From: Tubiluchus corallicola
Taxonomy: Eukaryota > Priapulida > Priapulimorpha > Priapulimorphida > Tubiluchidae
DNA: 64,000 nt
Direction: 5' to 3'
NCBI GenBank assembly: GCA_030141605.1
Contig: JAQGDQ010000360.1
Location: 125,001-189,000 of the forward strand
In this document: positions 1 through 62,436 of the stretch, one piece after another
Position numbering within the stretch: the stretch's first letter is position 1
Layout: each line of letters begins with the position of its first letter
Program-made: the position numbers and the translations under genes
The notes under the pieces: model-generated
The model's database searches: none
Told to the model about the DNA's origin: nothing
What the model saw: only the letters and a program-made list of their open reading frames with translations

Positions 1-309
1 TGGCACAATTTGATTTAAGCTTAAAAAAATTAAAAATTGTTTAGAGTTTTAGCTACCATTGAATGTTTTGATTGAAATGGCTGCTTTCACAACTTAGAAT
101 TTAAAGTGAAAATTTTTGAAAGGGTAAAGTTAATCTTATTTTGTGTGAGAGAAACTTAAATTCTTCATGTAGAGGATGAAAGTACCAGCCATAATTTTCT
201 TTAGCATCTTCAGCAAGATTTTATTACACAGGACAGTATCATAAATTATCAGATGTTATTTATTCCTACCAACGAGCTTACTACATTTTCGTACTCTTCC
301 ATTTTTCTA

Positions 310-5706: not shown

Positions 5707-5773
<67 letters not shown>

Positions 5774-13899: not shown

Positions 13900-15409
13900 C
13901 AATAATAGAATTATAAAAACATTCTGTTTTTATTTTAATAAAATTGAATAAAATTAATTAAAGAAAGCAAAAAGAAAAATTGACCTACCTGTATAGCATG
14001 TGCTTGTAACTTCTTCTGCAGTCAATTATAGTCTTTCTTTAACTTATTGTATTTCAAACCAGTGATGTTTAGCTACAATTTTGTTTCTTTGATGTTCTTA
14101 CTTTGGTACATGCTGTTATTTTATCTACTACATTCGGCTGATGAGGTCTGCTAAGGCAAAAGCTACTGAATAAATATTATAATCTTTGAGGCTATAATGG
14201 GCATTACGTTTTTTTCTGTCAAATATAACTTGTATATCTTTAATAACCTGAAACCTGGGTACTACAGAGCTAGTAAATGACTGTATTTTTATGGTTTGAA
14301 ACATGTAACGTCTACAAGCCGAAGTAAATAATAAAACAAAATTAAATTAATTTGTAAAATTTGAAAATGAAATTTGACTTTACATGAGCTTTTGTAATAT
14401 TCAAAGTGTTGTGATTAGTGTTGTTCAAAACAATTTACTGTAATTTCATTTATTTTGTAAGCAAGTTTGAAAAGACGAATTTTTTAAGTTTTTTATGAGG
14501 AGTACTTCTTGCACTTTAATGATGGACGCCTGTAAAACACATACGTTTTAAACTGACACTAAGACCTTTAACCCCAGATGATGACATTTTACCGTTTTTA
14601 CAAGTTTGAACGACGGAGCATTATTTGAAGAAATGACCTTAAAATTTCCTACATTAGTGTTTTCTTTTGTTTAATTCCATTGATTGCTCTGTTTTTGTTT
14701 GCAATTAGGTGACTTTGAAATAATTTATTTTTCAACTTTATTCACGAGTTTGTTGTTAATTACACAGTGTTTGATTCGCTGTAACGTTTGTTTAAACCAG
14801 CTAATCAAATCTTTCTTTTATCGAGTAGACGCCATATACATTTGGTGTAAGCCTCCTCGTTGTTACAAGTTTTGAACCAATTTATTTGAGTAGGTAAGTT
14901 TATAGAATAATAGTGACAAATATTACAAAATATTTGAGATTATCCAGGTTGTGTTATGTAGCCGGGTTGTGATATTGGAACAGAATATGTGTTACCAGTC
15001 AAACGTGTAAATACTGCATAATATTGTTGTAACGAAGGGAGCGGGAAAACTGAAAAAATACATTTTTGTTTTTTTTAATTATAATTCTGTAGCATGTTTA
15101 ATGTATAGCATATAGTAGTTTGTTCCACCCATCTCAAGCAATACGCATGACAAAGTGATAACAAAAAATACAACAAATATCATTGCTTGGGATGCATAGT
15201 AGTCAGAAGACGAAGCTCGTAAGCCTACACTGATAGTGGAATTATGTTTGGGGTGATGTTTGGATGAAGGATTAGAAGAATGAAAGATGGGTGAAGTGGT
15301 GAAGGATTGGTGGCGGATGACATGATAACAACAATGCCATGCTACAATTATCACTAAGCTTGTAAATTTAAGAAGACTTACACTAGAGTAAAATTCGGCC
15401 TGCATGTAC
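13900..15409. other. 3' flank of TTLL copy A
   Basis: Possible polyadenylation signals AATAAA lie at about 13937-13950. Homology to the other arm continues to about 15030. A hammerhead-like CTGATGA string is at 14138-14144, but the following GAAA is degenerate here. Nothing else recognised to 15409. Confidence 0.5.
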
Positions 15410-15839
15410 TAGGGGTGAGCATCGAACGTTCGAGTTCGAACGTTCGAATCGAATTCAATTCGATTCGAACGAGTTTTTTAGTTCGAACTCGATTCGAATC
15501 CAAATCTATAGATTCGAATAATTCAGCACTTCAATCACATATGTTCTTTATCACTAAAACGATTGAAACATCATGCAATTAGCGTGATTTAGCTGTAATT
15601 TCTGTGCACAATTTTATACCAATTACTAGTCGTTTTATTGTAGAACAAAATCTAGTAACATGCATGATTTTTGTAAGACTAATTTTTACTGGTGGTTCGA
15701 AAACTAGTTCGAAAATCTTTCAATCTGAATTCGAATTCGCTTCGAATTCGAAACACTGAAGTTCGGTTCGATTCGAATTCGAAAGTCATAAATTCGGTTT
15801 GATTCGAATTCGCTTTCTGGTAGAGAATGCTCACCCCTA
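15410..15839. mobile_element. hAT-like MITE with 8-bp target duplication (copy 1)
   Basis: 430 bases with terminal inverted repeats TAGGGGTGAGCAT / ATGCTCACCCCTA. It is flanked by a perfect 8-base duplication GCATGTAC (15402-15409 and 15840-15847). Subterminal regions are packed with TTCGAA-type motifs in both orientations. 8-base duplications are characteristic of hAT transposons. No transposase is present, so it is non-autonomous. A second copy lies at 52999-53404. Confidence 0.85.
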
Positions 15840-21015: not shown

Positions 21016-22043
21016 GTTCAAATTCCTCAATATGCAGAATACAAGGTCAGTAAAACTAGACCCACATATTGTAACTTAAAGTGGATCTGAACTGGTGTTT
21101 GGGGATATACGAGAACAAAAAGGAACAATAAACAAGGTTCAGCTTTTGTTAATGTTGCTGTTTTAGTTTCGCAAACTTAAATAAACGAATATTACTTGCT
21201 ATACTGCACACGCTTCAGAAAAATTGCACGCCCGGGATAGTATTTGATAGTATAGTATCAAATAGATAGATTAGATTAGTTATACTAATTACATTAATTA
21301 TAACACTCAAATTACTTACTGCACAGAATTGCAGAAAAAAAACATTTTTCTCTTCTTATCTAAAGTTCTTATATATATTTATTTATATTTGCATAATATA
21401 AAATTGTGTAAAAGATAATTTAATATTTTAGTAAACAAAGGATATATATGTGTGCGTGTGTGTGTGTGTGTTGTGTGCATGCGTGCGTGCGTGCATATTC
21501 AAGTAAACAAAGCTCACTAGATCAAAAATAGAATTGTTGTAAAGGTTTTTATACTTCAGGCCAAAGATACCAATAAGCAATACATTTACACACTAATCAC
21601 GTTACTCAAAGTTCAGGTAGTAAGTTAGGGATAATTGACAGTAAGAACTCTTTCATGTATTAACGATTTTACGACAACAAGCAGAAAACTGGATGCAAAT
21701 TTCCGAACAAACAAAGCAAATGAGTCACGTGATTACTGGAAAAACCTGAGACTTTCACAAGCAAAACATTTTCACGGACGTCCTAGTATTGCATTACTCA
21801 CGCTTTCACAATAAAATACACACAATTAAAGCTGCAATTGGTTGTAACTTTGGTTTTGACAGCTTGACTTACATTGTGCTTTTAACATTTGCCTCTTGTC
21901 AATAAAGGGATCTGGACACCAAGCCTAAATTTATACAACCTAAATACAAACGGAAGTAGAGCTGTTTTACAATAAAATGAGTTTAAACTGAAAGTCGTGT
22001 TAATGAAATGCTAACTTCGTTGTTGGAGTTCTGAGTAGTTAAA
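21016..22043. other. Upstream region of the HHAT-type gene
   Basis: Contains a short GTGTGT/GCGTGC tract at about 21450-21495. Otherwise I see nothing definite. No upstream exon of the HHAT-type gene is apparent; an in-frame TGA lies four codons before its ATG. Confidence 0.4.
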
Positions 22044-23576
22044 ATGGCCAAAACAACACGTCCAGTGTTGCCAGCTATTGAAACTTATGTGTATTTTATT
22101 GGTTACATTGGAGCTGTTTTATACTCCTGCTACGAATGTTACATGGTAGCATATGAGCACAGAAATGAATTTCTGGAAACCGACTTCAGACCTGGCTGGG
22201 CGATTCTAGGTCATCGTAAGAAAGACATCTCAGATCGTGAATGGAGATTCTGGAGTGAGTGGTTTTGGCCAGTGTTACCATGGTACTGTAGTCACATTGT
22301 TGTTGGTCAAATTGTGAACATTTACCTTTTTGATCAAAGACACTATTTTTATTTAGTTCATTCACTTGCTGCTATGTGTTGGGTGTTTCCTATAATGGGT
22401 GTTTTGAATGTGCTTACTCATTGTTGCATCATGTATTTCGTGTCATTATCCAGAAAGCCAATCCTCTGCTGGGCTTGTAGTTTAACTTTGTTGACAACCA
22501 TAAACGTGCCAAAGTTCTACAAACTGCATGTACTTGTTTCTCATCTCAACCATAGACATCAGCTGCTCTCATTTACCACATCAACGTTTATGTTGAATCT
22601 CAGGTACACGAGTGCAGCTTTAGAGTTTTCGAAGAAGTCGGAGAGATCATCAAAAGTAGAGGATCTGGTTAAATTTTTGGCTTATTGCTTCTACCTGCCT
22701 CTTTATTTCACTGGACCACTTCTTACCTATGAATTATTTGAATCACAGGTGAACAAGTCATATATTTGGACGCCAGGGAGAGTGAAGTACGTGTTTTTGG
22801 AGTTTGTTCGAATCTTTTCTTGGATACTTGTGATAGAGTTTGTCCTTCACTTTTATTATTTTCATGCTTTGTCACAGGAGGTCACTTTAGTGAGAACTAT
22901 GGGACGATGGGCTCTTGTAGGGCTCGGATATACCCAAGGACAATTTTTCCACTTGAAATATATGGCATACTATGGTTTTCCAGCGTCTATTGCTTTAATA
23001 GATGGATTGGAAGCCCCACAACAACCAAAATGTATATCCCGCATACACCTGTATTCTAATATGTGGAAATACTTCGATCGTGGTTTGTACCATTATCTGA
23101 GACGATACATATATGTTCCTACCTGTGGCTCCCCTTGTGATGTTGCGCGGAAGTTTTTTGCATCAGCAGTATGTTTTTTGTACGTATTTTACTGGCACGG
23201 GATGCACAATCATCTGATCATGTGGTGCATCTTGAATTTTATGGGTGTGTCTTTAGAGAATACAGCTGCTACTGTCGTTTCGAAACAGCCCATGGAAAAA
23301 TGGATGGTTCAATACTTGACTCCTGTTCAGTATCGAAGACTGCTGGCAGCTGTATCTGCGTTACTTTTACCGGTGACTATTATGTCGAATTTTTACTTCT
23401 TCATGGGTGTTGCTATTGGAGACGTTTATATGGATAAGATGATACTACATGGTACGCCGCAATCCTATGCTCTTGTGTGGTTTGTAATGTATTGTAGTTG
23501 TCAGGTATCAATGGACATAGAAAGATGGGAAGAGAAGGTTGGCTGGTGGGATCGTGACAAGAAATTTGAGAATTAA
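22044..23576 (+). CDS. HHAT: Hedgehog acyltransferase-type MBOAT protein (intronless)
   Basis: A 510-residue multi-pass membrane protein of the MBOAT family, close in length and block order to animal HHAT (Drosophila rasp). HHAT transfers palmitate from palmitoyl-CoA to the N-terminal cysteine of Hedgehog in the ER lumen. Recognisable blocks are LETDF near the N-terminus, the SDREWRFWSEW region, MWKYFDRGL with Asp345 (the conserved Asp of the family), YWHG with His385 (the conserved MBOAT His), and GVSLEN. About ten hydrophobic segments are spread over the chain. The start is supported by an in-frame TGA at 22032-22034. The whole frame is uninterrupted although HHAT genes usually have many introns, so this may be a retrocopy or an intron-poor lineage gene. 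It converges with the rolling-stone-type gene; the stops are 200 bases apart. Hhat-like (HHATL) is the alternative, but the retained His favours an enzyme. Confidence 0.88.
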   Translation: MAKTTRPVLPAIETYVYFIGYIGAVLYSCYECYMVAYEHRNEFLETDFRPGWAILGHRKKDISDREWRFWSEWFWPVLPWYCSHIVVGQIVNIYLFDQRHYFYLVHSLAAMCWVFPIMGVLNVLTHCCIMYFVSLSRKPILCWACSLTLLTTINVPKFYKLHVLVSHLNHRHQLLSFTTSTFMLNLRYTSAALEFSKKSERSSKVEDLVKFLAYCFYLPLYFTGPLLTYELFESQVNKSYIWTPGRVKYVFLEFVRIFSWILVIEFVLHFYYFHALSQEVTLVRTMGRWALVGLGYTQGQFFHLKYMAYYGFPASIALIDGLEAPQQPKCISRIHLYSNMWKYFDRGLYHYLRRYIYVPTCGSPCDVARKFFASAVCFLYVFYWHGMHNHLIMWCILNFMGVSLENTAATVVSKQPMEKWMVQYLTPVQYRRLLAAVSALLLPVTIMSNFYFFMGVAIGDVYMDKMILHGTPQSYALVWFVMYCSCQVSMDIERWEEKVGWWDRDKKFEN

Positions 23577-28616: not shown

Positions 28617-28735
28617 CTAGAAACAATAATGCATTAAATCTTGCATTAAATTTTAATCAGTGTTTCCACATAAGTGTTTACTATAAGTCTAAAAAGTGGC
28701 GTAGTTAAAAGGGGAGCAAGGCGGGGCAACCGCCC

Positions 28736-29058
28736 TGTCAAGGATTTTTGTTTGTCAAATTTGTACATGTGGTGACGTGTCTGTGTGAGCTCATGATTTG
28801 ATGCCAACGATGTACGTAAATTTTATTTAGTTATTTATTCTATTTACTGTAAGCTTCTCATTAATTTAATCATATTCGATGTTTTGGTAGAAATGAATCA
28901 GTTTATTCAAGAAATTTATATCTTATTTCAGATAAAATGTAATATTTTGGGATGAAGCAAATGACTACGGGGCATGTGCCATGAAAATGGTACAAACAAT
29001 AAACAGTTATACTGAGCAAATGATGACTTTGTTTGTTTGTCTCCGTAAAGCCCAAACA
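28736..29058 (+). repeat. 5' LTR of the BEL/Pao element (323 bp, internally deleted)
   Basis: Begins TGTCAAGGATTTTTGTTTGT and ends AAAGCCCAAACA. Relative to the 3' LTR it lacks about 83 bases at 28762/28763. The following leader (29059-29206) should contain the primer-binding site, but I could not match it to a particular tRNA. Confidence 0.92.
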
Positions 29059-29206: not shown

Positions 29207-32200
29207 ATGATGTCGGACCAAACAACAAGGGAGAAATTAAAAAATACGACCCGTGATCAGCTGCGAGAAATGCTGCGGGCCAAACAACTGTCAGTTTCTG
29301 GTAGTAAAGAAGAGCTAATTCACAGACTCTTAGCAAGTCAGCAGAAACCAGATCATTCATATAATGTGACGTCATGTGAAGCGTCTGGTACGTCGTCGTA
29401 TGCTGACGCAGCTACAGCGACAGCGCAGCATCAAGTTGGTGAGCGCAGCCCTTCCAAAGCATCTTCAGGTGCTAGTTATTCGAAATCTACGAGACGTTCG
29501 AAGAAAAGTGCCAGGGAATTAAAGTTGCATGAGATTAAGATTCAGGAACAGGGGCTGAAATTAAAAGCAATGAAGTTAAAACAGTTAAGACTTGAGAGTG
29601 AAGTTACTTCACATAGCAGTGCAACCAGTCAGAAGTCGCGTACAACCATCACCTCGCCTGAAATCAAGGACGAGACTTTAGCTAGGAAACCCATGTCAAC
29701 CAAGGACAAGGTTACCGATTGGCTTCAAGGAGTGCGTGACGTCACCAAAGCCCAGTCATCAGACACCAAGCCTGCAGTTCTCACCATGGCAACGAACGAC
29801 AGTTATGCTAAGGGAGCTCTTGTCTTGGCACACAGTTTGCGTCGAACTGGTACAATTCGACATCTAGCAATTTTGGTCACCCATACTGTTTCTAGCAGAG
29901 TTATGGCAGAGCTTAGTATTGTTTTTGATTATGTACAAATGATTGATTTATTAAAGAGTAGTGATTTTGATAACTTGCATTTGCTAGGTAGGCCAGAGCT
30001 AAATGTAACATTCTCGAAATTGCACTGCTGGGCTATGACACAGTTTACTAAATGCGTTTACTTAGATGCTGATACTTTAGTATTAGAAAATATTGATGAG
30101 TTATTCAATTATAATGAGCTTGCAGCTGCCCCAGATGTGGGGTGGCCTGATTGTTTCAATTCTGGAATGTTTGTATTTCAGCCAAGTTTGGAAACTTACA
30201 GTAGATTGTTGTCACTGTCACAAACTGAAGCCTGTTCATTCGATGGAGGTGATCAGGGTTTATTAAATTTAACCTTTCCGAACTGGAGTTTACAGTTTGA
30301 CAAGCGCCTACCTTTTGTGTATAATGCTGCCGTCCAAGGTCGTTACGGTTACCTTCCTGCAATGAAGCAGTTCAGTAGCAAGATTAAAGTTGCGCACTTT
30401 TTAGGCCGAAAGAAGCCCTGGGATTATAATGAATATGAAAACGGGGAGATCTCCGTCAATTTCTCGGATGACTATGAAGCAGGTTTTCTTCGTAGATGGT
30501 GGGATATCTATTTGTCTGATGTACAGCCCTTCTTCGAAAATTTTCCCAGTGAAGGTTTAGAACCTAGCGTTAAACAAACTACGCCGTTCTTCCATGCCCC
30601 TCAGGTAGAACAAACTTTAAATATTTCTGCACGTGACTTCGTCCCAGGGAATACGCAACTTCCGCTTCCGGCTACATCGCCTCAGGCTTCTTATGGTAAC
30701 GGGATACAAAATAATTCTAGGAATTTCTCCGGTAGGGCTAGTCAGAATGACATGAACGTTTTTATGGACCTCATGTTAGAAGGCCAAAGACAACACTTAA
30801 ATATGTACAATGCTATGCAGCTTCCACACGTGCAGCTTGAAACGTTTGATGGTGACGTAATGAAGTTCTGGAGCTTTATCAAGCGTTTCGAAGCCAGCGT
30901 GGAGAACTATACCCAAGATGATGCAGCGAGGTACACTAGGTTAGCCCAACTCTGCATTGGTAAAGCTAAAAGAGTTGTTGACAGTTGTAATTACATGGAC
31001 CCCCGTTTTGCATATGGGCATGCTAAACAGCTTTTAACCGAAAGATTCGGCTCGCCATGTGTTGTCACGCAGGCCTGGCTTTCCAGAATTGCTGAATTTG
31101 AGCCCAGAAAAACAAATGAGCCGGGAAAGTTACAGGAATTTTCTGATTTGATTGTGGCTTGTGTGGAAACTTTGAAAATAATGAACAACGTTTGCGAAAT
31201 TAGTACTCAATGCAGTTTGCTACAAATAATTAAAAAACTCCCATTCAAGTTCCAGGATAGGTGGAAGGATGTTGAAGCCAGGCTTCTGAAATATGAGCTC
31301 AGGAATCCGACGATATTTGATGTAGTCGAATTCATTAAGGACGCAGCTGACAAAATGAATCATCCTGTTTTTGGCGACATTAACGTTAGCCTGCCTACCA
31401 GGAGCCCAAAAGGTAAACGCGACACCAAAGCCAGGAATTTCGCCAGCTCAGCGCAGGAAACTGCGTCAATTACGAAATGCAACAGTGAACGACAACCCGG
31501 AAATACAACCGGAAGTGGTAGCAAAATGGCTTCTCAACGCCTAAAGATGCCTTGTTTTCTATGTGACTCTACGGAGCACCGTTCACTCAAGCTATGCAAT
31601 AAATTTAAGTCAATGAATGATACTGATAGATTGAAAATCGCCAGAAGAGAAGGTCTTTGCTTCAATTGTTTGATTAAAGGAAAGCACAGGGCTTCTCGGT
31701 GCTTCAAAGCAGGATGCGACGTAGAAGGTTGCAGTCATAAGCATTCAAATTTACTGCATGCTGCCTTGGAGAAAATGTCACCTTCTAAAAACAATGATGG
31801 AAGCAAGGAGAAAAAAGCGCCAACACATTGCAAACCAGAGGCTTCTAGCAGTTGTGCTAGTATTAAGGAAGGCGGCAAAGCGGCTCTCCCTGTTGTCTCA
31901 GTTTTGGTTGAAGTTGATGGGAAGATGCCCGTGCGTACTTTAGCCCTACTTGACCCTGGTTCGACTAATACTTTTTGTACAAAGGCATTGTTCGACAAAC
32001 TTGGGGCTACTGGACAAGAACGAACGCTCTCTTTAACCACTATAGAAGAGAAATATTCCAAGATAAACACTTTAATCACGAAGATGTCTGTTACTGGGGT
32101 AAACACTGGCAATAAAATAGCTTTGCCTCATGTCTTCGTTAGGCCTGCATTGTTACTGGAAAAGGACTGCTTGGCCTTTAGCAAGGATGTAGAACAATGG

Positions 32201-35200
32201 CCGCATTTGCAAGGACTTCCCCTATCGTTCACAGATACAGAAGACCTAACTGAACTGGGACTTTTGATCGGCCAGGATGTTCCTGATGCGCTGATTCCTC
32301 TTGAGGTACGAACAGGTCCTAGACTAACGCCATATGCTGTGAAGACAAAGCTAGGCTGGACCCTTAATGGACCCATAGGAGGCGGCGTTCCTAATTTAGG
32401 GCGCATTTGTAGTAATTTGACCCAAGCCAATGCATTGTCATATGGAGAAACCAATTCCTTGCAGCAGCAAATAGAACAATTCTGGAAAATTGAAACTAGC
32501 GAGTCTGACAGACACTTCTCTAGAGACGATATGCGTGCTCTCGATATATGGGAGGCTTCAATCACAAAAACACATGGGCATTACCAGTTGGACACCCCAT
32601 TTAAATCTGAGAATGATGTGTTACCATATACGCTACAAATGGCTTCATCTAGATTGGAAAGCCTACGTAAACGGCTGCAGAGGAACCCAGAATTGCACAA
32701 CCGATACACTACAGCTATAAATGACCTATTCAAGAAAGGATATGCAGAAGAGGTCGATGAAGATGATGACCCTACTTCCAGGAAATGGTTTCTTCCCCAT
32801 TTTCCGGTGTTTAATGCCAATAAACCGGAGAAAACTCGCATCGTCTTCGATGCAGCAGCGGAAACAAGTGAAATATCTCTAAATAAATTAGCATTGCAAG
32901 GGCCAGATCTCACAAACACGTGCATTGGAGTTTTGCTTCGGTTTCGAGAGAATCCTATTGCAGTAATGGCGGATATCCGGGAGATGTTCCACCAGGTGAT
33001 CGTGTCTCCTAAACACAGAAATATGTCGCGTTTCCTTTGGTGGAAAGATGGAAAACTTAACAGTCAACCATGCACTTTTAGAATGTGTGTTCACTTGTTC
33101 GGCGGGGTGTGGTCCCCGAGCGTTGCATCATTTGCTTTGCAAAGGACTGCAAAAGACAATGCGGATTTGTTTCCCGCAAATGTTGTCGCTACCATTTTGA
33201 GAAACTTCTATGTGGACGACCTTTTAAAATCGCTAAACACCGTGAATGAAGCCATACAGCTAGTTTCTCAACTGACTGCCGTATTGTCTCTTGGTGGATT
33301 CCACATAACTAAGTGGATGAGCAACAGACGTGAGGTCTTGGCATCTGTGCCTGCTGAAGAACTTGGAAGTGAAGTCAAGAATCTTGACTTAGCTCAGAGC
33401 CCTCTGCCAACTGATCGCGTACTGGGAGTTAAATGGCTAGTTGAGGAAGATTGCCTTGGAATTTTGGTTTCACTCAAAGACAAGCCCAGTACAAAACGAG
33501 GAATGTTAAGCTGCATTTCGTCAGTCTATGACCCATTAGGAATGATCTGTCCATTCGTTCTGCAGGCCAAAAAACTCTTCCAAGATGAATGTAGAATTCA
33601 GAAAAAGGATTGGGATGACGCTCTAGAACGAGATACAGAAGCCAAGTGGGCAAAGTGGAAAGGAGATTGTTTCGCACTAGAAAACTTCAAGTTGGAGAGA
33701 TGCATGAAGCCTCGTGATTTTGGCCTGATTTTCCATTTACAGTTGCATCATTTCTGCGATGCTTCGAGCTATGCCTATGGTACTGTCAGTTATGTACGTA
33801 TGAAGAGTGCTCAAGGTGAAATTCACACAGCATTCCTCATGGCTAAATCAAGACTTGCCCCACTTAAAGGTCTTACAATACCACGTCTTGAACTCTGCGC
33901 TGCAGTTTTAGCCTCAAAAGTTGATCAAATGCTAAGGGAAGAGCTATCCTTTTGTGTTGGTACAGATCAGTCAGTCTTCTGGACTGATAGTCAGATAGTT
34001 ATTCATTACATTCGGAACACAGCAAAGCGGTTTCATACATTCGTCCAAAACCGTGTCAACTCAATCTTGCAAGTCTCTTCACCAACTCAATGGCGGTTTG
34101 TTAGCTCAACAGACAACTGTGCTGATGATGCGTCCCGAGGCATGAGCGCTGAAGAATTGCTACTTTCCAATAGATGGAAGTTTGGTCCATCTTTCTTAAG
34201 AAAAGATGAAGCTTCGTGGCCGCAGACTACTTTAGATTCGGATGATGTACTAGCTAATGACAAAGAAGTAAAGCGGTCCGCCACTGTGAACGTCGTAGAA
34301 TGCAAAGCAACTTCAAATAATGTCATAGATCAATTGTTGCAGTATTACTCATCCTTTTACAGGCTAAAAAGAGGTTTAGCCTGGTTATTTCGAGCCAAAA
34401 CAATATTGCACAGGAAAGCTTCTGGCGGAAGTGATATGGATTGTTCCACAAATCTAACTCTGACTGAATTAACTGAGGCCCAGAATGAGCTGATCAGGCA
34501 CACACAGAAGCAAAGTTTCAACAAAGAATATAAGACGATGTGTTCCCGTACCAAATCTACATGCCGAGAACGCTCTGTAACCAAATCATCCTGCCTGTAT
34601 AAGCTGGATCCCTTTATTGACAAAGAGGGATATTTGCGTGTCGGCAGTCGCCTGCAAGATGCTCTAGTAGATCATGAAGCTCGTCATCCTATTATTCTTC
34701 CCAAAAATCATAGACTCTCTTGGCTTGTCATACAGCACTTCCACGAGACAAATGGACATACAGGAAGAGAACATGTCATGGCTTCAGTCCGTAGAGCGTT
34801 CTGGATAATTGGTATGCGAGTCATGGTGCGGAAAGTAATCCATGAATGCAGACAATGTAGGCTGCGTTACTCTCAACCATTGCAACAAAAAATGGCCAAC
34901 TTGCCTCCTGAGAGAGTTCAACAAGGCTCCTTCTCTGCGGTTGGCGTGGACTGCTTTGGACCAATTTTGGTCAAACGCGGTAGAATCGAGGTGAAGCGTT
35001 ATAGGGCACTCTTTACTTGTTTAGCCACACGAAGCATCCACTTGGAGGTACTCTTCTCGATGTCTACAGATTCCTTCATTAAAGCACTCCATAGATTTTG
35101 TAGCAGAAGAGGCAAACCTAACAGAATTAGGTCCGACTGCGGCACTAATTTTATAGGTGCCAACAAGGAACTTTCCAAGGCTATGAAAGAGTGGAATCAC

Positions 35201-35293
35201 AACACTATTCAGAAAGACTTGCTCCAGGAGAACATCGAGTGGGAGTATAATCCGCCCCGAGCAAGATTGTCAAGAAGCATTTGCTTTCGGTGA
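29207..35293 (+). CDS. BEL/Pao gag-pol polyprotein with embedded glycogenin (2028 aa)
   Basis: Domains in order: SAP DNA-binding motif (about 8-44); basic coiled segment (95-135); glycogenin-type GT8 domain (about 188-448); BEL gag (from about 545, LPHVQLETFDGD); CCHC knuckles near 783 and 818 (CFLC..., CFNC...H...C); protease with LLDPGS (Asp916); RT with YVDD (1335-1338); RNase H; integrase HHCC zinc region, then the first two catalytic Asp (1915, 1977). The frame runs open for 6 kb, then terminates after WEYNPPRAR. The conserved segment that should follow, containing the catalytic Glu (GGVWE-type), is deleted, and the downstream integrase part continues in another frame. I describe the break only. 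The long open frame and intact GT8 contrast with the damaged end. Confidence 0.92.
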   Translation: MMSDQTTREKLKNTTRDQLREMLRAKQLSVSGSKEELIHRLLASQQKPDHSYNVTSCEASGTSSYADAATATAQHQVGERSPSKASSGASYSKSTRRSKKSARELKLHEIKIQEQGLKLKAMKLKQLRLESEVTSHSSATSQKSRTTITSPEIKDETLARKPMSTKDKVTDWLQGVRDVTKAQSSDTKPAVLTMATNDSYAKGALVLAHSLRRTGTIRHLAILVTHTVSSRVMAELSIVFDYVQMIDLLKSSDFDNLHLLGRPELNVTFSKLHCWAMTQFTKCVYLDADTLVLENIDELFNYNELAAAPDVGWPDCFNSGMFVFQPSLETYSRLLSLSQTEACSFDGGDQGLLNLTFPNWSLQFDKRLPFVYNAAVQGRYGYLPAMKQFSSKIKVAHFLGRKKPWDYNEYENGEISVNFSDDYEAGFLRRWWDIYLSDVQPFFENFPSEGLEPSVKQTTPFFHAPQVEQTLNISARDFVPGNTQLPLPATSPQASYGNGIQNNSRNFSGRASQNDMNVFMDLMLEGQRQHLNMYNAMQLPHVQLETFDGDVMKFWSFIKRFEASVENYTQDDAARYTRLAQLCIGKAKRVVDSCNYMDPRFAYGHAKQLLTERFGSPCVVTQAWLSRIAEFEPRKTNEPGKLQEFSDLIVACVETLKIMNNVCEISTQCSLLQIIKKLPFKFQDRWKDVEARLLKYELRNPTIFDVVEFIKDAADKMNHPVFGDINVSLPTRSPKGKRDTKARNFASSAQETASITKCNSERQPGNTTGSGSKMASQRLKMPCFLCDSTEHRSLKLCNKFKSMNDTDRLKIARREGLCFNCLIKGKHRASRCFKAGCDVEGCSHKHSNLLHAALEKMSPSKNNDGSKEKKAPTHCKPEASSSCASIKEGGKAALPVVSVLVEVDGKMPVRTLALLDPGSTNTFCTKALFDKLGATGQERTLSLTTIEEKYSKINTLITKMSVTGVNTGNKIALPHVFVRPALLLEKDCLAFSKDVEQWPHLQGLPLSFTDTEDLTELGLLIGQDVPDALIPLEVRTGPRLTPYAVKTKLGWTLNGPIGGGVPNLGRICSNLTQANALSYGETNSLQQQIEQFWKIETSESDRHFSRDDMRALDIWEASITKTHGHYQLDTPFKSENDVLPYTLQMASSRLESLRKRLQRNPELHNRYTTAINDLFKKGYAEEVDEDDDPTSRKWFLPHFPVFNANKPEKTRIVFDAAAETSEISLNKLALQGPDLTNTCIGVLLRFRENPIAVMADIREMFHQVIVSPKHRNMSRFLWWKDGKLNSQPCTFRMCVHLFGGVWSPSVASFALQRTAKDNADLFPANVVATILRNFYVDDLLKSLNTVNEAIQLVSQLTAVLSLGGFHITKWMSNRREVLASVPAEELGSEVKNLDLAQSPLPTDRVLGVKWLVEEDCLGILVSLKDKPSTKRGMLSCISSVYDPLGMICPFVLQAKKLFQDECRIQKKDWDDALERDTEAKWAKWKGDCFALENFKLERCMKPRDFGLIFHLQLHHFCDASSYAYGTVSYVRMKSAQGEIHTAFLMAKSRLAPLKGLTIPRLELCAAVLASKVDQMLREELSFCVGTDQSVFWTDSQIVIHYIRNTAKRFHTFVQNRVNSILQVSSPTQWRFVSSTDNCADDASRGMSAEELLLSNRWKFGPSFLRKDEASWPQTTLDSDDVLANDKEVKRSATVNVVECKATSNNVIDQLLQYYSSFYRLKRGLAWLFRAKTILHRKASGGSDMDCSTNLTLTELTEAQNELIRHTQKQSFNKEYKTMCSRTKSTCRERSVTKSSCLYKLDPFIDKEGYLRVGSRLQDALVDHEARHPIILPKNHRLSWLVIQHFHETNGHTGREHVMASVRRAFWIIGMRVMVRKVIHECRQCRLRYSQPLQQKMANLPPERVQQGSFSAVGVDCFGPILVKRGRIEVKRYRALFTCLATRSIHLEVLFSMSTDSFIKALHRFCSRRGKPNRIRSDCGTNFIGANKELSKAMKEWNHNTIQKDLLQENIEWEYNPPRARLSRSICFR
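29768..30550 (+). other. Captured glycogenin (GT8) domain inside gag-pol
   Basis: Residues about 188-448 align end to end with the catalytic domain of animal glycogenin, the self-glucosylating primer of glycogen synthesis. Seen directly: TNDSYAKGALVL near the N-terminus, RPEL and KLHCWAMTQ, the DAD Mn/UDP-glucose motif (287-289), GWPDCFNSG, FDGGDQG (345-351), PFVYN, Tyr380 in GRYGYLP at the position of the autoglucosylated Tyr195 of human glycogenin-1, and HFLGRKKPW (397-405). The C-terminal glycogen-synthase-binding tail of glycogenin is absent. No introns interrupt it and it is in frame on both sides, which points to capture of a spliced host transcript. Whether it is released or active as an enzyme is unknown. 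Confidence 0.93.
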
Positions 35294-35810
35294 CAAATGA
35301 ACAAGCTCTTGATGATGAAGCTCTATACACACTATTCTGCATTGTTGAAAACGTTGTCAATAGTAGGCCTTTAATGGCAACCTTGGACGACCCAAAAGAC
35401 TGTAGTCCTCTGACGCCCAATCACCTGCTGTTGGCGAAGTGTAACTTAACAAACCTGCCTTCTGGAAAGTTTACATCAGCAGACATCTATCGCCGCAAAT
35501 GGCGCCAGATCCAATACCTAGCTGATGTCTTTTGGCGACGTTGGCAGACGGAGTACTTGCCGCTTCTCCAGATCCGCTCAAAATGGAATCGTCAGAAGAA
35601 GGATTTCGAAATAGGCGACGTTGTACTGATAATGGATGAAACCCCCAGAAGTTGTTGGCTTCTTGCTCGAATAACGGAAAAACATGTTGGAAGAGACGGC
35701 CTAGTGAGAAGCGTAACACTAAAAACAAAGGATGGGCAGCTGCAGCGCCCATTCACAGATTATGCTTGATTGAAAGCGCACTTGATGAGTTTAAAGGAGA
35801 AGCACTGTAA
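35294..35810 (+). pseudogene. Frameshifted integrase C-terminal part of the BEL/Pao element
   Basis: After the break near 35270 the integrase C-terminal region continues in the +1-shifted frame (DDEALYTLFCIVENVVNSRP, then PNHLLL and WRQIQYLADVFWRRW, all typical of BEL integrases). A second single-base shift near 35752 moves the end into another frame that reaches TAA at 35808. Thus two lesions plus the Glu-region deletion inactivate integrase. Confidence 0.8.
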
Positions 35811-35887: not shown

Positions 35888-35899
35888 TTAAGGAGGCGG
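35888..35899 (+). promoter_or_regulatory. Polypurine tract of the BEL/Pao element
   Basis: AAGGAGGCGG immediately precedes the 3' LTR TG, the expected primer site for plus-strand DNA synthesis. Confidence 0.75.
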
Positions 35900-36304
35900 T
35901 GTCAAGGATTTTGTTTGTCAAATTTAGTATAGCTATAAGTTACAAGTGGCGACACCTGGCCTCAATAGTCGCTTCCTACAGAATTTCCGGTCATTTAGGT
36001 TTCAAGGTGTACATGTGGTGACGTGTCTGTGTGAGCTCATGATTTGATGCCAACGATGTACGTAAATTTTATTTAGTTATTTATTCTATTTACTGTAAGC
36101 TTCTCATTAATTTAATCATATTCGATGTTTTGGTAGAAATGAATCAGTTTATTCAAGAAATTTATATCTTATTTCAGATAAAATGTAATATTTTGGGATG
36201 AAGCAAATGATTACGGGGCATGTGCCATGAAAATGGTACAAACAATAAACAGTTATACTGAGCAAATGATGACTTTGTTTGTTTGTCTCCGTAAAGCCCA
36301 AACA
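35900..36304 (+). repeat. 3' LTR of the BEL/Pao element (405 bp)
   Basis: Begins TGTCAAGGATTTTGTTTGTC and ends AAAGCCCAAACA. Full length; the related solo LTR at 54770-55178 is 409 bases. Confidence 0.93.
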
Positions 36305-36815
36305 CGCCCCCCCCCTGAACACATTTTTCAAAATTAAAAACTTTTGGAGGCCAATATTGTAAGAAGCGCAAAATTTTGCTGGACTGCTGCGTTAATCATG
36401 CACTAATTATGTATTTACAAAACCCAAATAGGTAATAATTAAGCAGACCAGTAGAAGAGAAATTGTTATAGTATCAAATAGCTAAGTGTTTGAGAATAAA
36501 GTTAAAGGAATTGAACTGCTTTGTACATTAAGAGAAGGCTTATTAGGGCACATAAATAAACTTTCTTTTATTAATAAATTCCAGTTATTTGTAGCTCTGG
36601 TCACAATGCTGAAATTATGAACATCATTGTTTATTTTCTACTGGTCTGCTTATTCATTAAATAATTGATACAGCAAATTGGTTGTATGTTGGTAACTTTA
36701 CAACTGATGATGACAGCAGTAATCTGTCGAAACGTTTGGCATGACTTAACTATGTAAAATAGAAGTTTTAATAAAATTGTGATGGTTTAACTATAAGTGC
36801 CTGTAATAATTTTAC
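36305..36815. other. Sequence between the BEL element and TTLL copy B
   Basis: No gene. It includes a short inverted pair AAGCAGACCAGTAGAA (about 36440) and its complement (about 36637), suggesting a small mobile element, and a hammerhead-like motif at 36704-36733. Homology of copy B to the other TTLL copies ends near 36795. Confidence 0.4.
36704..36733 (+). ncRNA. Hammerhead ribozyme-like core
   Basis: CTGATGA (36704-36710), a five-pair stem GACAG/CTGTC (36712-36716 with 36724-36728), then GAAAC (36729-36733) reproduce the conserved core order of a hammerhead. One unpaired base lies between CTGATGA and the stem, and I could not define convincing stems I and III or the cleavage site. Such motifs occur in retroelements, including Penelope-like elements. 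Confidence 0.3.
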
Positions 36816-39284
36816 TTTTTAACGGCAAATCTGGGTCCTCCTGCGAGAGGGTTTGTGTATATTCTCAATGGCTCAAGAGACGCAACGTAAGCATATATTC
36901 TTAGGTGAAACTTGTAACCATTGATGAGATACGGGTTGGGCACGTACCTGAAACATTTTAATTAAGCACATAGAATCACATTACACTAATCTTCTTACTA
37001 TGGAGTGTCGTTTGTACTTTACTATAATTTCACTTAAAGGAATATCCGCTGATATAACAAAACAGTGAACTTCGTGTTAATAATTAATAAATCTAATCAA
37101 ATCTGTAGCAGACTCAGCTATTTTTTGTTAATCCTCTTTCAAGTTCGTGTACGAGGCGTCACCTGTGGCGGTAATATAAATCTTTTAGTTTTGGCCAGCT
37201 TTCAGTTGTTACCTGCTAGTCACCTGTCTGTTTACTCACCTGTGCTCTGAACAGTCGGGTTAAACCACTTTATGGGACATTTGGAACATTTACTTGCTGA
37301 TTTTGTTACAATAAAGCATTCAGTGGTATTAACCTCTGTCAAAATGTTTCTGTCATTTTACAAAATCAATTTAATTCACCTCAGGAATAGTTATAAAAAA
37401 GAAATTCAGGGAACTACGCATAAATAGTCGTTAGTTACAATGTATTTTATTTTTAACACAAATCTTATCTTAAGAAATCTTATCTAATCTTGTTAATGTA
37501 AATATATATATATACAATTGGAATGGAATTAAATATATACACATTCCATATATTATTTTGAATACATAATTTAAAACACACACTGTGGTCGTTTCATTTC
37601 CTCCCTTCTTCCCAACTCTAGTGTTGCTTTTTTGAGCCTACCTATTCACTAACCACAACCATTCTTTATTCACTTATTCATGACTCTTTAACAAGTGATG
37701 CAGCAATAATTTTATTTGGTTTCTTAAATGATTTTTTTCTTACACCGTTTAGTATGTATATATATATATATATATATGTTTGTATGTATTTATGTATGTA
37801 TACTGATGTCATGTGATTAAAAACATAAAGAATAGCGTACAACTGCCATTTAAAGCAAATTACAGATCTGGTAAATCGACATACAAGAAGAAAAATGCAA
37901 AAACACAAGACATGCAAATCAAGAATGTCCACCCAATTATGTAAAAATGTAGAAGTTGAATAACATATTACTAAAATAGAGAAATGTTTTCACCCCGTGA
38001 AATCCGCTTGGTGCATAAGTATAACAAAAAATGAATAATTTTAAGATAACCAAATCGTATAATAGTAATGAAAAGAAACAGAAATAAGAGCAATATTTGT
38101 TCTTATTTTATTTCTGGCAAACCTTTGTATGACAAGTTGACTATTTGGCAGCCTATTTAAGCTGTTGATGACTTTGACTCCCTTCCCCCTGCTACAAGCA
38201 ACCTAGAAAGGAATAGAAATGACAACAGAAAGGGATCTTATGCTGAAAAACAATCCAAATTTGTATTTACACAGATGCACAAATTTGAATCGGCAAAACA
38301 CTAGTTTGGTATCAAAATTTTGTACCATTATTAATAATAATATTGACATTAAGATTATTAAAATTAATTATCACCAGCAGAATTTCAGGTTCAAAACTAG
38401 GGAAAATATAATTATTCTAATTAGTTAGGATTGTCTCTAGTGTGAACAGTATAACATCGGAAACGCTCTAATTTGGCTAGCTATACAAGGGGTAAACTTT
38501 GGACTGCTTTGAGCAGTATGGAATATGATTGCCTGGTTTCCAAGGCGTCTGCTCTGTAAGTAGATACCACTGGTTCAAATCTAGGCTGTATTCCAACCTT
38601 TTCACATTTCCTGCATTTCATGCTTGATATCAAAATTAAATTCATTGCGGGTTTTGTACCATCATTAAAAATCATTTTGACATTAAGATTACGATTAAAT
38701 TAAATAGATTACGTAGTAAAGCAACAAGCAGTTGTCAAGTTTCTGTCGGTTCCAAACTGGATCTAGAATTTATTTAATTTATTTTAATTCTATTTATTGA
38801 TACTCAATTTTTAAAATTTATGGACAAATAAATATCCATCCACATAACCGAAGAACATATTATATAGCAACACCATACGAATATTTAATCAAAAAAAAAT
38901 ATATATAAATTAATATAAATAAAAGTTTGTGACAAAATGAGGCAGCGACTATGACTAATTAACTAATAATAACTTTACCAGCTATTAGATTTTAGTGTCA
39001 ATTTTAACTTTTATATTGCATTTTTATGTGCAGAAATAAGCTTTTAATAAATAAATAAACAATAAATAAAATTATAATAATCTTACCGGTTTGTAAATCC
39101 ATAAGTTGTCAGGTGAACTGTCATTCCAGGTTTTATAAAGCACCAACAACTCGTGAGGAAGGAGAAACGTTTGTGGTACGAAGTCGAATGAGTCTTTTCC
39201 ATGTTTTAGCATCATGTTTTTCATGATTTTCCAGAAACTGTCTTTGTGCATGGCTTCTTGATGAGATCCGGGAAGCTGATTAAA
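36816..39284 (-). pseudogene. TTLL copy B, partial (exons 4-6 only)
   Basis: Minus-strand exons 39284-39087, 38202-38123 and 36947-36816 have exactly the lengths (198, 80, 132) and splice sites of exons 4-6 of copies A and C, counting exon 1 as 1578-1745. All three are open. It keeps SRGKGV (Arg of the RGxG loop) and GGPRFAVKK, nearer to canonical TTLL than A and C, and shares KFHLR (His for Asp). Upstream exons are cut at about 39298, where gypsy sequence begins; downstream exons are absent. It lacks the BEL-family LTR found at one intron site in A and C (empty site near 37310). Confidence 0.8.
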
Positions 39285-39453
39285 CTAAAATGAAAAAGAT
39301 TATAGACCTCTTCCCGAAGCCACGCGTGCACACCAGAGCAAAAAAGCACCTGCGAACTTTCGCGAAATGACCCTGATGTTTCCACATCTAGGTTCAATTC
39401 TCACTTGTCCAGTGGCACAGCAATGGAACAAACTAATTCGTTTTTACCTTTGC

Positions 39454-42400
39454 AAGCAGTGCCGGAGTTCACACCGATCCGGCTAAGACGGAAGCCGTTG
39501 CAAAGTGGCCACAGCCCACTAACATTTCCGAGCTTCGCAGTTTTTTAGGTCTTTGTACTTATTACCGACGCTTTATTCAAAATTTTGCTAATGTTGCTAG
39601 TCCTCTTTATCAACTTACTCGGAAAAATCAATCTTTTGTTTGGCAAACTAGCCAGCAACGTTCATTTGAGCGTTTAAAAAACTTGTTGACAAGCGCACCA
39701 ATTCTAGCATACCCCCAGTTTGATAAACAATTCATTCTGGACACTGACGCCAGCAGTGTCGCTGTCGGAGCTGTCTTGTCACAATTACAAGGAGAGGAGG
39801 AGCATGTAATTGCGTACTATATCCAGGTTCTTTCGCCAGCAGAGCAAAATTACTGTGCTACGCGGCGCGAGCTATTAGCAGTAATAAAGGCAGTGAATCA
39901 CTTCCATCACTACCTGTACGAGCGCCAGTTTTTAATACGGACTGTTCATGCTGCCTTGCGCTGGCTTCGATCTTTGAAGAAGCCAGAAGGTCAGCTTGCC
40001 CGCTGGTTGGGAAAGCTGGACCAGTATGATTATTCCATAGAGCACAGGTCTGGCAAAAACCACAACAATGCATATGCTCTCTCTCGCAGGCCTTGTGAGG
40101 CTGAATGTAAATTTTGTTCAAGTAAATGTACAGAATCCTCAAAAGAGCTACACGAGCATTGTTTAGCAAGCGCGGAAACTTCCGTGGATCCTAAACATGC
40201 GAAAATCGCGAGGGCAGGAACTACGCTTCGCGATATAAACTTAGATTTTGCTCACGAACAAGCTGAAGATAGGGACATAGCCCCTATTCTTGGCTTTTTG
40301 CAAACTACTGAGCAAAAGCCACCTTGGGAACAAATTTCTGCACTGAGTCCAGAAACCAAGGCGCTCTGGCAACAATGGGGAGCCAACGCCAAAAATGGCA
40401 TTGTTCAGCGCCGCTGGGAGTCTCCTCAGGGAAACATTGTACGTTATCAGTGGATTGTTCCCCGCAATTTTCGGGAAAGCCTACTAACTGGTTTTCACAG
40501 TGACGCATCTGCTGGTCATTTTGGCCAAAATAAGACCTTCGCAAAACTTCGTGAACGTTATTTTTGGCCAGGAATGCGAAAAGATGTTAAGTTGTGGATC
40601 CGTTCTTGCCATGAATGTTGTGGTAAAAAAGGACCACAAAGGAAGCCAAGAGCACCTCTGCAAATGTATCGCGTGGGCGCTCCAATGGAGCGAATTGCAA
40701 TTGACATTGCAGGTCCTTTTGTACGTTCAGACTTAGGCAACAAGTACATTCTAATTGTAATTGATTACTTCACAAAGTGGCCTGAGGTTTTTGCTATACC
40801 GAACCAAGAGGCCGAAACTGTTGCCTCAGTTCTAGTGAACGAGTTTTTCTGTAGGTTTGGTCTTCCAGGGGAGATACATAGTGATCAAGGTCGCAATTTT
40901 GAGTCGCGTATTTTCCAGCAATGCTGTGAGTTACTGGACATAGTGAAAACACGAACTACCCCTTTAAATCCAAAAAGTGATGGTCTCGCAGAACGGTATG
41001 TACGCGTCATTTCTCGGCAATTAGCGCAGTTTTGCAGCACCCATCAGCGTGACTGGGACGTTAAATTACCTCTGTTTGTTTTTGCGTACAGGTCCGCAGA
41101 GCATGAGTCGACAGGTTTCACTCCTGCAAAAGCAATGCTAGGTGGTGAGCTTCGTCTTCCTTTGGACTTGCTTACAGGTCGTCCTCCCCCGGACACCCCT
41201 TCTTGCAACACAGTAGAACATGTCAAACAACTTGAAAACAACTTGTATGATGTTCATCATTCCATCCTTAACAACTTAACGATTTTCTGGTGAAACAATG
41301 CACAGACGTTATGACGTCAAAGCCAAGACCCCACGTTTTAAACCTGGTGACTTAGTGTGGTTTTTCAATCCACAGCGCAAAGTTGGACGGTCGCCAAAGT
41401 TGCAATTAGATTGGCAAGGACCATACGAAATCGTTAAGCAATTGTCAGAGGTAGTTTTTCGCATACGCCTTCCAGAAGCAAAACGCTGCAAAGTCGTTCA
41501 CGCAGACAGATTATGGCGGTATACACCTGCGCAAGGTTTTTCTTGGGGTACTCCAGAAGTTCAGAGTACTTGCACGCAAGTAGATAGCCAAGCAACTATT
41601 AATTACGAGTTTTCCGGGGACAGCAATGAGACTTCTTTAGTTGAAGCTCCAGTTTCTTTCGGATTACCACCACCCCCATACTCTCCGCATAGAAGCAGCA
41701 TCTCAGAATCGGAAGTAGAAACTGCATCGAGTTCACCTGCCTTTGTGCCTGGTAGTGACAGCATTTCTGCGCCTGCCCTGTCGCCCCAGCAAAGCCCTAC
41801 TAGTGATTATTTCCCCAGCGACCGCATGGAAGCTCCGTCTCCACCTCCTTTATCACCCGTTCACCCAAGAACTTCTACTCCTAGAAAGCCAGCTTCGCCT
41901 GGTCCATTAAGTCTGTTGTCGAGTAATGACACAGGGACTGAAGTCTCAGAAAGTGAGACTAGCTCTGCGTTGAAGTCTTCTCAGAGAAGCCATAAAAATA
42001 CACAGAGCGGAGTAGATAGTGGAGAAACCACTATTCTTTACGAACTTATGGAATTCGATACGCAAAGTGAAGACGAAAATGACCCCTCATTAGCCCACGT
42101 TACATCCTCTCCCCCTCTTATCGCGGACCAGGGCGATTCTATTCGTACCCCACCTTGCCTCACTCCCACTACCTTTTACGGAGCGGCAGCAACTGCTGAT
42201 GACCCAGAGCCTTCTTCTAACGTTAGATCCTACCCTCGTAGAAATCGCCTCCCTCCCACCAATCTAGGAAACTACATCTTTTATGATCCAACAGCTATTG
42301 GGACACGGACTCGAGATGCTCGATTTGCTCGTCTACTCCGTGAAACTGATGTACCACTAGAACCATGTATTTTGACAAACTGCCCCTGTCAGAAATTGTT

Positions 42401-42503
42401 TTCTGGTTCACCAAGCAATGACGTAAGCGATGCTGCAAGCACTTTGTTGGAACGAGCACCACCTCCACGCAGCTTGTTTTACCTAAAAACTTACAACGAT
42501 TAA
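39454..42503 (+). pseudogene. Ty3/gypsy pol fragment (RT end, RNase H, integrase, 3' extension)
   Basis: Starts in the RT connection (SSAGVHTDPAKTEAV, then LRSFLGLCTYYRRFI). RNase H has LDTDAS and TRRELLA, but the last catalytic Asp of the usual NADALSR is Tyr (TAT, 40073-40075). Integrase has the H-H-C-C zinc region, Asp in IAIDIAGPF, Asp in HSDQGRNF and Glu in GLAERY. Near 41283-41286 one extra T in a T-run shifts frame; the GPY/F block (WQGPYEIV) and a Ser/Pro-rich tail rich in TSSPP-like motifs continue in the other frame to 42503. The breaks are noted only. 42504-43930 has no convincing frame. Confidence 0.85.
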
Positions 42504-44472: not shown

Positions 44473-44690
<218 letters not shown>

Positions 44691-45887
44691 CAGTATTTAC
44701 ATGTTTGACTGGTATTTACGTGTTTGTACGTCAAAACAGTGAGGAGACTTACACCAAATGTATATGGCGTCTATTCGATAAAAGAAAGATTTGATTAGCT
44801 GGTTTAAAAAAACGTTACTGCGAATCAAACACTGCATAATTAATAACAATCTCGTGAATAAAGATGACAAATAAATTATTTCAAAGTCACCTAATTACAA
44901 AAAAAAACAGAGCGATCAATTGACTTAAACAAGAGGAAACATTAATCTAGGATATTGCAAGGTCATTTTCTTATTAAATGTCCGTCATTAAAGTGTAAGA
45001 AGCACTCCTCATTAACAATTTAAAAAATTCGTCTTTTCAAACTTGCTTACAAAATAAATGAAATTACAGTAAATTGTTTTGAACAACACTAATCACAACA
45101 CTTTGAATATTACGAAAGTTGATGTAAAGTCAAATTTTATTTTCAAATTTTACAAGTTAATTTAATTTTGTTTTATTATTTACTTCAGCTCGTAGATGCT
45201 ACATGTTTTAAGCCATAGAAATACAGTCATTTACGAAGACAAACCATTTACGAAGATTAGAAAAAGAAACTGAGTACAAATATTTACCTGACTTGACACA
45301 AAATCAAGAGAACTCCGATGGACAAAGATTCTAGAGCATACAAAAACATCAGTGTGGTAGATTAAATATTTTGAAAAACCATTACCAGTATTTAAAACAT
45401 GGCAACTAAGAACATATGTACATTTACCCAAAATGGCTTTCGAAAGGCTAATATCATTTTCTACGCAGATTGCAGAACATCGCGTACCATATCTATAGTT
45501 GAAGAATTTTACCATAGCTCTGTAGTGCCCAGATTTCAGATTATTAAAGATATACAAGTTACATTTGACAGAAAAAAACGTAATGCCCATTATAGCCCCA
45601 AACATTTACAATATTTATTCAGTAGCTTTCACCTTAGCAGACCTCATCAGCCGAATGTAGTAGATAAATAACAGTATGTACCAAAGTTAGAACATCAAAG
45701 AAACAAAATTGTAGCTAAACATCACCGGTTTGAAATACAATAAGTTAAAGAAAGAGTATAAATGACTGCAGAAGTAGTTACCTGCACATGCTATTCAGGT
45801 ACGTCAATTTTTCTTTTTTCTTTCTTTAATTAATTTTAGTCAATTTCGTTAAAATAAAAACAGAATGTTTTTATAATGCTATTATTG

Positions 45888-45949
45888 CTATGCTGTATTT
45901 GTTTGTAAATGCAATTTTTGTTTACAAAGTTCTTCCAGCACAAGCCAGC
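45888..45949 (-). pseudogene. Second copy of the TTLL copy C last exon
   Basis: Identical in layout to 47321-47382 (62 bases, acceptor TTTTTAG, stop TAG), inside the upstream tandem unit. It could serve only if spliced past the first copy. Confidence 0.7.
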
Positions 45950-46008
45950 CTAAAAAAAGAAAAATTAAAAGATGCCATAATAATAATAACGATAGTGATA
46001 ATAATAAC

Positions 46009-46084
<76 letters not shown>

Positions 46085-46093
46085 TTAATAATA

Positions 46094-46124
<31 letters not shown>

Positions 46125-47320
46125 TTACGCAGTATTTACATGTTTGACTGGTATTTACATGTTTGTACGTCAAAACAGTGAGGAGACTTACACCAAATGT
46201 ATATGGCGTCTATTCGATAAAAGAAAGATTTGATTAGCTGGTTTAAAAAAACGTTACTGCGAATCAAACACTGCATAATTAACAACAATCTCGTGAATAA
46301 AGATGACAAATAAATTATTTCAAAGTCACCTAATTACAAAAAAAAACAGAGCGATCAATTGACTTAAACAAGAGGAAACATTAATCTAGGATATTGCAAG
46401 GTCATTTTCTTATTAAATGTCCGTCATTAAAGTGTAAGAAGCACTCCTCATTAACAATTTAAAAAATTCGTCTTTTCAAACTTGCTTACAAAATAAATGA
46501 AATTACAGTAAATTGTTTTGAACAACACTAATCACAACACTTTGAATATTACGAAAGTTGATGTAAAGTCAAATTTTATTTTCAAATTTTACAACTTAAT
46601 TTAATTTTGTTTTATTATTTACTTCAGCTCGTAGATGCTACATGTTTTAAGCCATAGAAATACAGTCATTTACGAAGACAAACCATTTACGAAGATTAGA
46701 AACTGAGTACAAATATTTACCTGACTTGACACAAAATCAAGAGAACTCCGATGGACAAAGATTCTAGAGCATACAAAAACATCAGTGTGGTAGATTAAAC
46801 ATTTTGAAAAACCATTACCAGTATTTAAAACATGGCAACTAAGAACATATGTACATTTACCCAAAATGGCTTTCGAAAGGCTAATATCATTTTCTACGCA
46901 GATTGCAGAACATCGCGTACCATATCTATAGTTGAAGAATTTTACCATAGCTCTGTAGTGCCCAGATTTCAGATTATTAAAGATATACAAGTTACATTTG
47001 ACAGAAAAAAACGTAATGCCCATTATAGCCCCAAACATTTACAATATTTATTCAGTAGCTTTCACCTTAGCAGACCTCATCAGCCGAATGTAGTAGATAA
47101 ATAACAGTATGTACCAAAGTTAGAACATCAAAGAAACAAAATTGTAGCTAAACATCACCGGTTTGAAATACAATAAGTTAAAGAAAGAGTATAAATGACT
47201 GCAGAAGTAGTTACCTGCACATGCTATTCAGGTACGTCAATTTTTCTTTTTTCTTTCTTTAATTAATTTTAGTCAATTTCATTAAAATAAAAACAGAATG
47301 TTTTTATAATGCTATTATTG

Positions 47321-62436
<15,116 letters not shown>

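Follow-up and report, generated by a model that had tools for sequence, protein, structure and literature searches.

A glycogenin-type glycosyltransferase domain inside the Gag of BEL/Pao retrotransposons from Tubiluchus corallicola

Why would a retrotransposon carry the catalytic domain of glycogenin inside its own Gag? The question is raised by a stretch of 64,000 nucleotides (hereafter the window) from the priapulid Tubiluchus corallicola (assembly GCA_030141605.1, contig JAQGDQ010000360.1, positions 125,001 to 189,000). A first, sequence-only reading had noticed there a full glycogenin catalytic domain of glycosyltransferase family 8 (GT8), intronless and free of stops, in frame within a BEL/Pao gag-pol and downstream of a SAP domain. 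This observation is confirmed: the window contains a BEL/Pao long terminal repeat (LTR) retrotransposon with GT8 inside Gag, in an open gag-pol frame of 2028 amino acids, between the SAP/coiled region and the DUF1759 gag domain (Table 1). Because families with only about half of their sequence in common still agree in nearly all active-site residues, I suggest that the window copy belongs to a BEL/Pao lineage that likely glucosylates a tyrosine of its own Gag with host uridine diphosphate glucose (UDP-glucose).

A GT8 domain in Gag, in the window and across the assembly

The window element contains the Pao-type A17 peptidase and reverse transcriptase-RNase H (RT-RH) region, with a strong Peptidase_A17 match, an RVT_1 match below the cut-off and a YVDD motif; it also has LTRs, a polypurine tract (PPT) and a target-site duplication (TSD). 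The order of domains is gag, protease (PR), RT, RH and integrase (IN), although RH has no separate domain score and the integrase is broken, its frame stopping within the rve core and its DUF5641 part lying in a different frame. The published profile of the Belpaoviridae (PMC8742986) is alike in its LTRs of 0.2-1.2 kb, PPT of about 10 nt, single continuous gag-pol, nucleocapsid knuckles, gag-PR-RT-IN order and A17/Pao peptidase family. BEL/Pao elements are described there as having gag, pol and sometimes env, and the profile names no sugar-transfer domain, whereas here a GT8 separates the Gag N-terminus from the capsid-like domain. The SAP match of the window copy falls just short of the cut-off, whereas those of related families pass it (E 5.4e-9 to 9.3e-7). 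A structure model of Gag had a mean pLDDT of 38.7 and was unusable.

A search of the assembly with the GT8 peptide gave 95 matches, among them exons of a cellular gene and remnants riddled with stops. Of these matches, 26 span 250 or more of the 265 residues, and 21 of the 26 are stop-free. I scanned the neighbourhoods of the best 30 of the 95 matches, the window locus included, up to 1.5 kb beyond each GT8. The same gag adjoins GT8 in the same direction at all 30 loci (29 besides the window's), a protease piece accompanies them at 25, and tblastn found the N-terminal piece at 18 of the 30. Pfam searches of family representatives returned SAP in all four further N-termini (two of which had no tblastn match), DUF1759 in all four gags and GT8 in both domains searched. 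Other copies with GT8 between SAP and gag, for which the sequence-only reading had asked a search, are thus present among the representatives of several families. An RT follows GT8 in four of five stretches sampled from other families; in the fifth (L012) the protease is joined directly to the A17 region without an RT, suggesting a deletion.

Some of these insertions are young. At L006 the two LTRs are identical over 407 nt and are flanked by the TSD ATATT, on which basis family 1 is young, and together with the window copy this makes two young insertions whose LTR pairs have 0 and 1 substitutions. Identical copies (L007-L009 and L024-L025) may be assembly duplicates. The same data dispose of the suspicion that a misassembly or one chimeric insertion produced the fusion: the neighbourhood is shared by all 30 loci, which are spread over many contigs and several diverged families, two of the insertions are flanked by TSDs, and their GT8 is not that of the host's glycogenin, so this explanation is refuted for practical purposes.

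Active site, constraint and origin of the domain

Glycogenin glucosylates its own Tyr195 from UDP-glucose; Y195 contacts Y197, and Y197 in turn contacts D160 and W128 of the adjacent molecule (PMC12267440). The elements retain all four residues, D160 in 23 of 24 copies. I checked catalytic residues, in glycogenin-1 numbering, in 24 copies (21 distinct DNA sequences) from the 26 near-full-length GT8s, leaving out L030 and one copy on contig C1982, both stop-ridden. Lys86, Asp104, Trp128, Asp163, Gln164, Tyr195, Tyr197, His212, Gly215 and Lys218 are present in all 24, and Thr83 is replaced by Ser in families 2 and 3. Hence the GT8 catalytic features of a glycogenin (DxD, DGGDQ and Lys86, with an exception in family 4) are present, as are the acceptor tyrosine (Tyr195) and Tyr197 in every copy checked. 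The retention is selective: of 66 columns with 99% conservation or more across 332 cellular proteins, each element copy keeps 57-64, and just 22-36 of the 123 columns that are less than 80% conserved in the same proteins. The window copy keeps 61 of the 66, compared with 143 of 259 columns overall. The fold of its GT8 is that of glycogenin, and the identity of the domain was matched to glycogenin-1.

One feature of glycogenin is missing. The C-terminal part of glycogenin binds glycogen synthase (PMC8203840 and PMC12267440), and the corresponding motif, sought as a pattern, occurs in none of 14 SAP-GT8-gag stretches and nowhere in the window frame. For this reason I call the element domain glycogenin-type rather than a glycogenin. 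It differs from animal glycogenin-1 (GYG1) in this absence (0 of 14 by pattern), in its fusion to Gag and in being intronless.

The sequence-only reading had proposed dN/dS across copies as a gauge of function, with values near 1 arguing against it; the outcome is non-neutral change in families 1 and 2 and no detectable constraint in family 3. In the site counts each variable site enters a single time and transitions are given an assumed weight of 2; the ratios derived are not maximum-likelihood omega values. Family 1 (seven loci, without L008 and L009, which are identical, and without L010 and L028, which are broken) has 25 synonymous and 33 nonsynonymous sites in GT8 (p 0.0027), and family 2 (six loci) has 15 synonymous and 15 nonsynonymous sites and one stop (p 0.0026). 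Pairwise dN/dS, where defined, is 0.13-0.79 in family 1 and 0.11-0.43 in family 2. The omega-like ratio of GT8 is close to that of gag, at 0.38 vs 0.40 among four copies of family 1 and 0.42 vs 0.35 among five copies of family 2 (the stop-bearing L015 left out). GT8 is therefore constrained about as much as gag in two families, and not detectably in the third.

Where did the domain come from? A glycogenin tree including the host gene, which the sequence-only reading had called for, places the element GT8s apart from the sampled cellular sequences. The trees were built from chosen rows, with 14 of the 24 element copies in a 62-row tree and ten in a 37-row tree. In the former the 14 element GT8s split from 48 cellular rows, the host's among them (94/96; 96% of 200 bootstrap trees). 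The element branches are long (0.36 to 1.44 changes per column), and when the window GT8 is the only element row in a 115-row tree its end branch is 1.69 against a median of 0.17. Among six family representatives (L001, L011, L012, L014, L020 and L024) GT8 is 48-61% identical and gag 34-57%, and the two identities covary (Spearman 0.83 over 15 pairs, which are not independent), as expected if GT8 was inherited with gag. The host's cellular glycogenin (contig C2137) lies separate from the elements, has at least five exons and is only 46-56% identical to the element GT8s, which led me to reject a recent capture of this gene; it is 55-63% identical to other animal and metagenomic rows and about equally distant from all phyla sampled. 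On these comparisons the simplest reading would be that an animal glycogenin was captured only once, well before the youngest insertions arose.

Searches for relatives by GT8, RT or the GT8 family alignment A2 returned none from viral contigs. Three protein searches together gave 333 different proteins among the matches listed, which appear to be cellular glycogenins, and to which the window GT8 is at most 55.9% identical. By Pfam annotation none of the listed proteins, the best 120 of 974, 265 and 1890 matches, shows a retroelement domain. This absence is weak, as two of the searches scored just those candidates with most words in common, and a relative belonging to a different GT8 family might rank behind cellular glycogenins and so fall outside the listing. 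Two metagenomic glycogenin-like proteins (P0007 and P0008) carry PF00412, which I take to be LIM, in addition to GT8.

Possible roles of the domain within Gag

If the elements arose as suggested, an ancestral element would have taken up a glycogenin messenger, or the first part of one, in a single event and at the junction that precedes the capsid domain. The GT8 of Gag may then dimerise as glycogenin does, so that Gag subunits would glucosylate each other during particle formation, moving glucose from host UDP-glucose to a tyrosine of their own or a neighbouring Gag. With no visible means of recruiting glycogen synthase, Gag would end up bearing a short glucan tag and would not prime a glycogen particle. 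Candidate roles of such a tag are assembly, stability and tethering to host glycogen, with assembly as a first guess because GT8 sits inside Gag at one fixed position. Beyond the glucosylation itself, it is conceivable, with chances a little short of even, that Gag is a self-glucosylating enzyme and that the particles are assembled from, or coated with, Gag bearing tyrosine-linked glucan, a sugar-coated capsid of the element's own making.

Several observations weigh against this account. The GT8 of family 3 (four loci) has 11 synonymous and 29 nonsynonymous sites and two stops (p 0.42, no detectable constraint), and its pairwise dN/dS, where defined, is 0.47-1.07. The omega-like ratio of the N-terminus is 0.37 in family 1 and 0.72 in family 2, neither of them significant. 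Stops occur in five of the 26 near-full-length GT8 copies and in the gag of two of the 14 stretches read (L004 and L014), and a 3' LTR was found in only two of six stretches fetched for it (L032 and L034), some stretches reading N. Asp160 is Val in L019, and Asp102 is present in 22 of 24 copies, family 4 (L024/L025; G000:C461 and C485) having Glu for the first Asp of DxD. Family 4 also has the most divergent element GT8 sampled, and its enzyme is possibly changed or weakened. As to origin, the split between ten element GT8s and 27 cellular rows in the 37-row tree (99/95) has a bootstrap that did not settle, the long element branches mean that the grouping could be helped by long-branch attraction, and a clade of the elements with the host gene is not rejected (p-AU from the approximately unbiased test, 0.20). 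Finally, no relative was found outside the source genome, among viral contigs and the listed protein matches.

Could GT8 instead be a structural dimerisation or spacer module of Gag, its chemistry irrelevant? The altered DxD of family 4 and the lack of detectable constraint in family 3 speak for this, and the activity of the captured enzyme open reading frames (ORFs) in LTR elements of bdelloid rotifers is likewise undemonstrated (PMC5408684). It is nonetheless unlikely, given that Tyr195, Tyr197 and the other key residues are almost always kept while the rest has diverged to about 50% identity. Alternatively, the element may keep GT8 for its effect on the host, either glucosylating host glycogenin or drawing off UDP-glucose and so altering glycogen or innate sensing in cells with an active element; nearly all of the catalytic residues are there, and since glycogenin functions as a dimer, a protein with its fold might pair with that of the host. 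However, GT8 has a fixed place beside gag in the loci fetched rather than an ORF of its own, and the glycogen-synthase-binding motif is absent from 14 of 14 stretches read, which makes a host effect a rather unlikely reason for its retention. That the domain is useless, captured once and carried along by copying, is very improbable: family 3, indistinguishable from neutral, would fit, but GT8 is open in 21 of 26 near-full-length copies, families 1 and 2 show an excess of synonymous change, and the catalytic set is conserved across families despite those branches of 0.36 to 1.44 changes per column. Self-glucosylation of Gag is thus the reading that I prefer.

How does such an element compare with known systems? 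Bdelloid LTR elements have also captured enzymes (a GDSL esterase and a DEDDy exonuclease) with most catalytic residues kept (PMC5408684). However, those enzymes are encoded by ORF3s of their own in LTR lineages other than this one, and the same paper reports no significant departure from neutrality for them, whereas here the enzyme lies inside Gag and is constrained about as gag is in two families. Viral GT8 proteins, including the p13-like proteins of baculoviruses and mimiviruses, have a GT8-like fold (TM up to 0.76 among the matches listed), but they are genes of large DNA viruses and phages and far more distant from glycogenin (identity up to 30% among the matches listed). The text of the BEL/Pao survey PMC3118150, searched by word, mentions no SAP domain, no "glyco" and no additional domain, and its sole "captur" concerns env. 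Among the papers that searching an open-licence library turned up, none describes a glycosyltransferase inside Gag, judging by the title and the opening of the abstract. An LTR retrotransposon with a captured host enzyme is thus known; the enzyme inside Gag is the new aspect. In this genome several families have an enzyme within a structural protein and keep its self-modification site. Activity of the domain would make Gag a particle protein that glycosylates itself from host UDP-glucose, presumably in the cytosol, with no need of the secretory pathway; it would also offer a natural experiment in how a metabolic enzyme comes to belong to a capsid.

Structure of the element and its neighbourhood

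Table 1. Features of the GT8-bearing element and of a related solo LTR, in window coordinates
Feature	Position	Strand	Remarks
5' TSD, CGCCC	28731..28735	.	
5' LTR, TG..CA	28736..29058	+	323 nt; lacks an 83-nt inner stretch that the 3' LTR has
Open gag-pol frame	29207..35293	+	2028 aa; ends inside integrase core
SAP domain	29249..29332	+	Gag N-terminus; E 5.9e-5, just below cut-off
Glycogenin-type GT8 catalytic domain	29768..30562	+	within Gag, in frame
DxD motif	30065..30073	+	Asp102/Ala103/Asp104 (glycogenin-1 numbering)
DGGDQ motif	30242..30256	+	Asp160, Asp163, Gln164
YGY, acceptor tyrosine	30344..30352	+	Tyr195 and Tyr197, both in 24/24 copies checked
DUF1759 gag domain, capsid-like	30845..31270	+	E 9.1e-7
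Two CCHC knuckles, nucleocapsid	31553..31702	+	31553-31597 and 31658-31702; pattern only
Protease motif LLDPGS	31946..31963	+	pattern; Asp_protease_2 E 0.0037, under cut-off
Reverse transcriptase match	32945..33307	+	RVT_1 E 0.0013, below cut-off; YVDD at 33209
Peptidase_A17 (Pao) region	33491..33991	+	E 1.1e-30 for the part after 33602
Integrase zinc-binding domain and truncated rve core	34709..35170	+	rve under cut-off
Remaining integrase region (DUF5641)	35251..35769	+	other frame; gene broken here
PPT, AAGGAGGCGG	35890..35899	+	directly before 3' LTR; identical tract in L034 and L032
3' LTR, TG..CA	35900..36304	+	405 nt
3' TSD, CGCCC	36305..36309	.	
Solo LTR, related element	54770..55178	+	about 84% identical at aligned sites; flanks TGTGG/AGTGG

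The LTR pair aligns with 321 matches and 1 mismatch (1 substitution in 322), one 1-nt gap and one 83-nt gap. Initial bounds drawn around a 297-nt repeat were rejected as too short and without a TSD; a stretch just ahead of the 5' repeat is found again inside the element ahead of the 3' repeat and where the remnant at 54770 begins, which gave the true bounds. The solo LTR has its empty insertion site in a duplicated homologous copy near 37320.

Much of the window is an imperfect inverted duplication (1-15839 against 44538-62075, the inverted pieces mostly 80-95% identical), to which a third block at 36794-39299 is related. Both arms contain, beside long ATT/ATA microsatellites, a repeated exon-like stretch (ILAHILDDLTPADVREL..., at 13410-13865 and 47355-47957) that may resemble a tubulin-ligase-like protein. 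Near the GT8-bearing element lies another pol with RNase H and integrase (39437-42503), which I take to be Ty3/gypsy-like. An MBOAT-family gene at 22035-23576, presumably a hedgehog acyltransferase by its look, is one open frame of 513 aa and possibly a retrocopy, and a copy of the 5S rRNA gene lies on the minus strand at 3434-3535 (Rfam, 83.9 bits).
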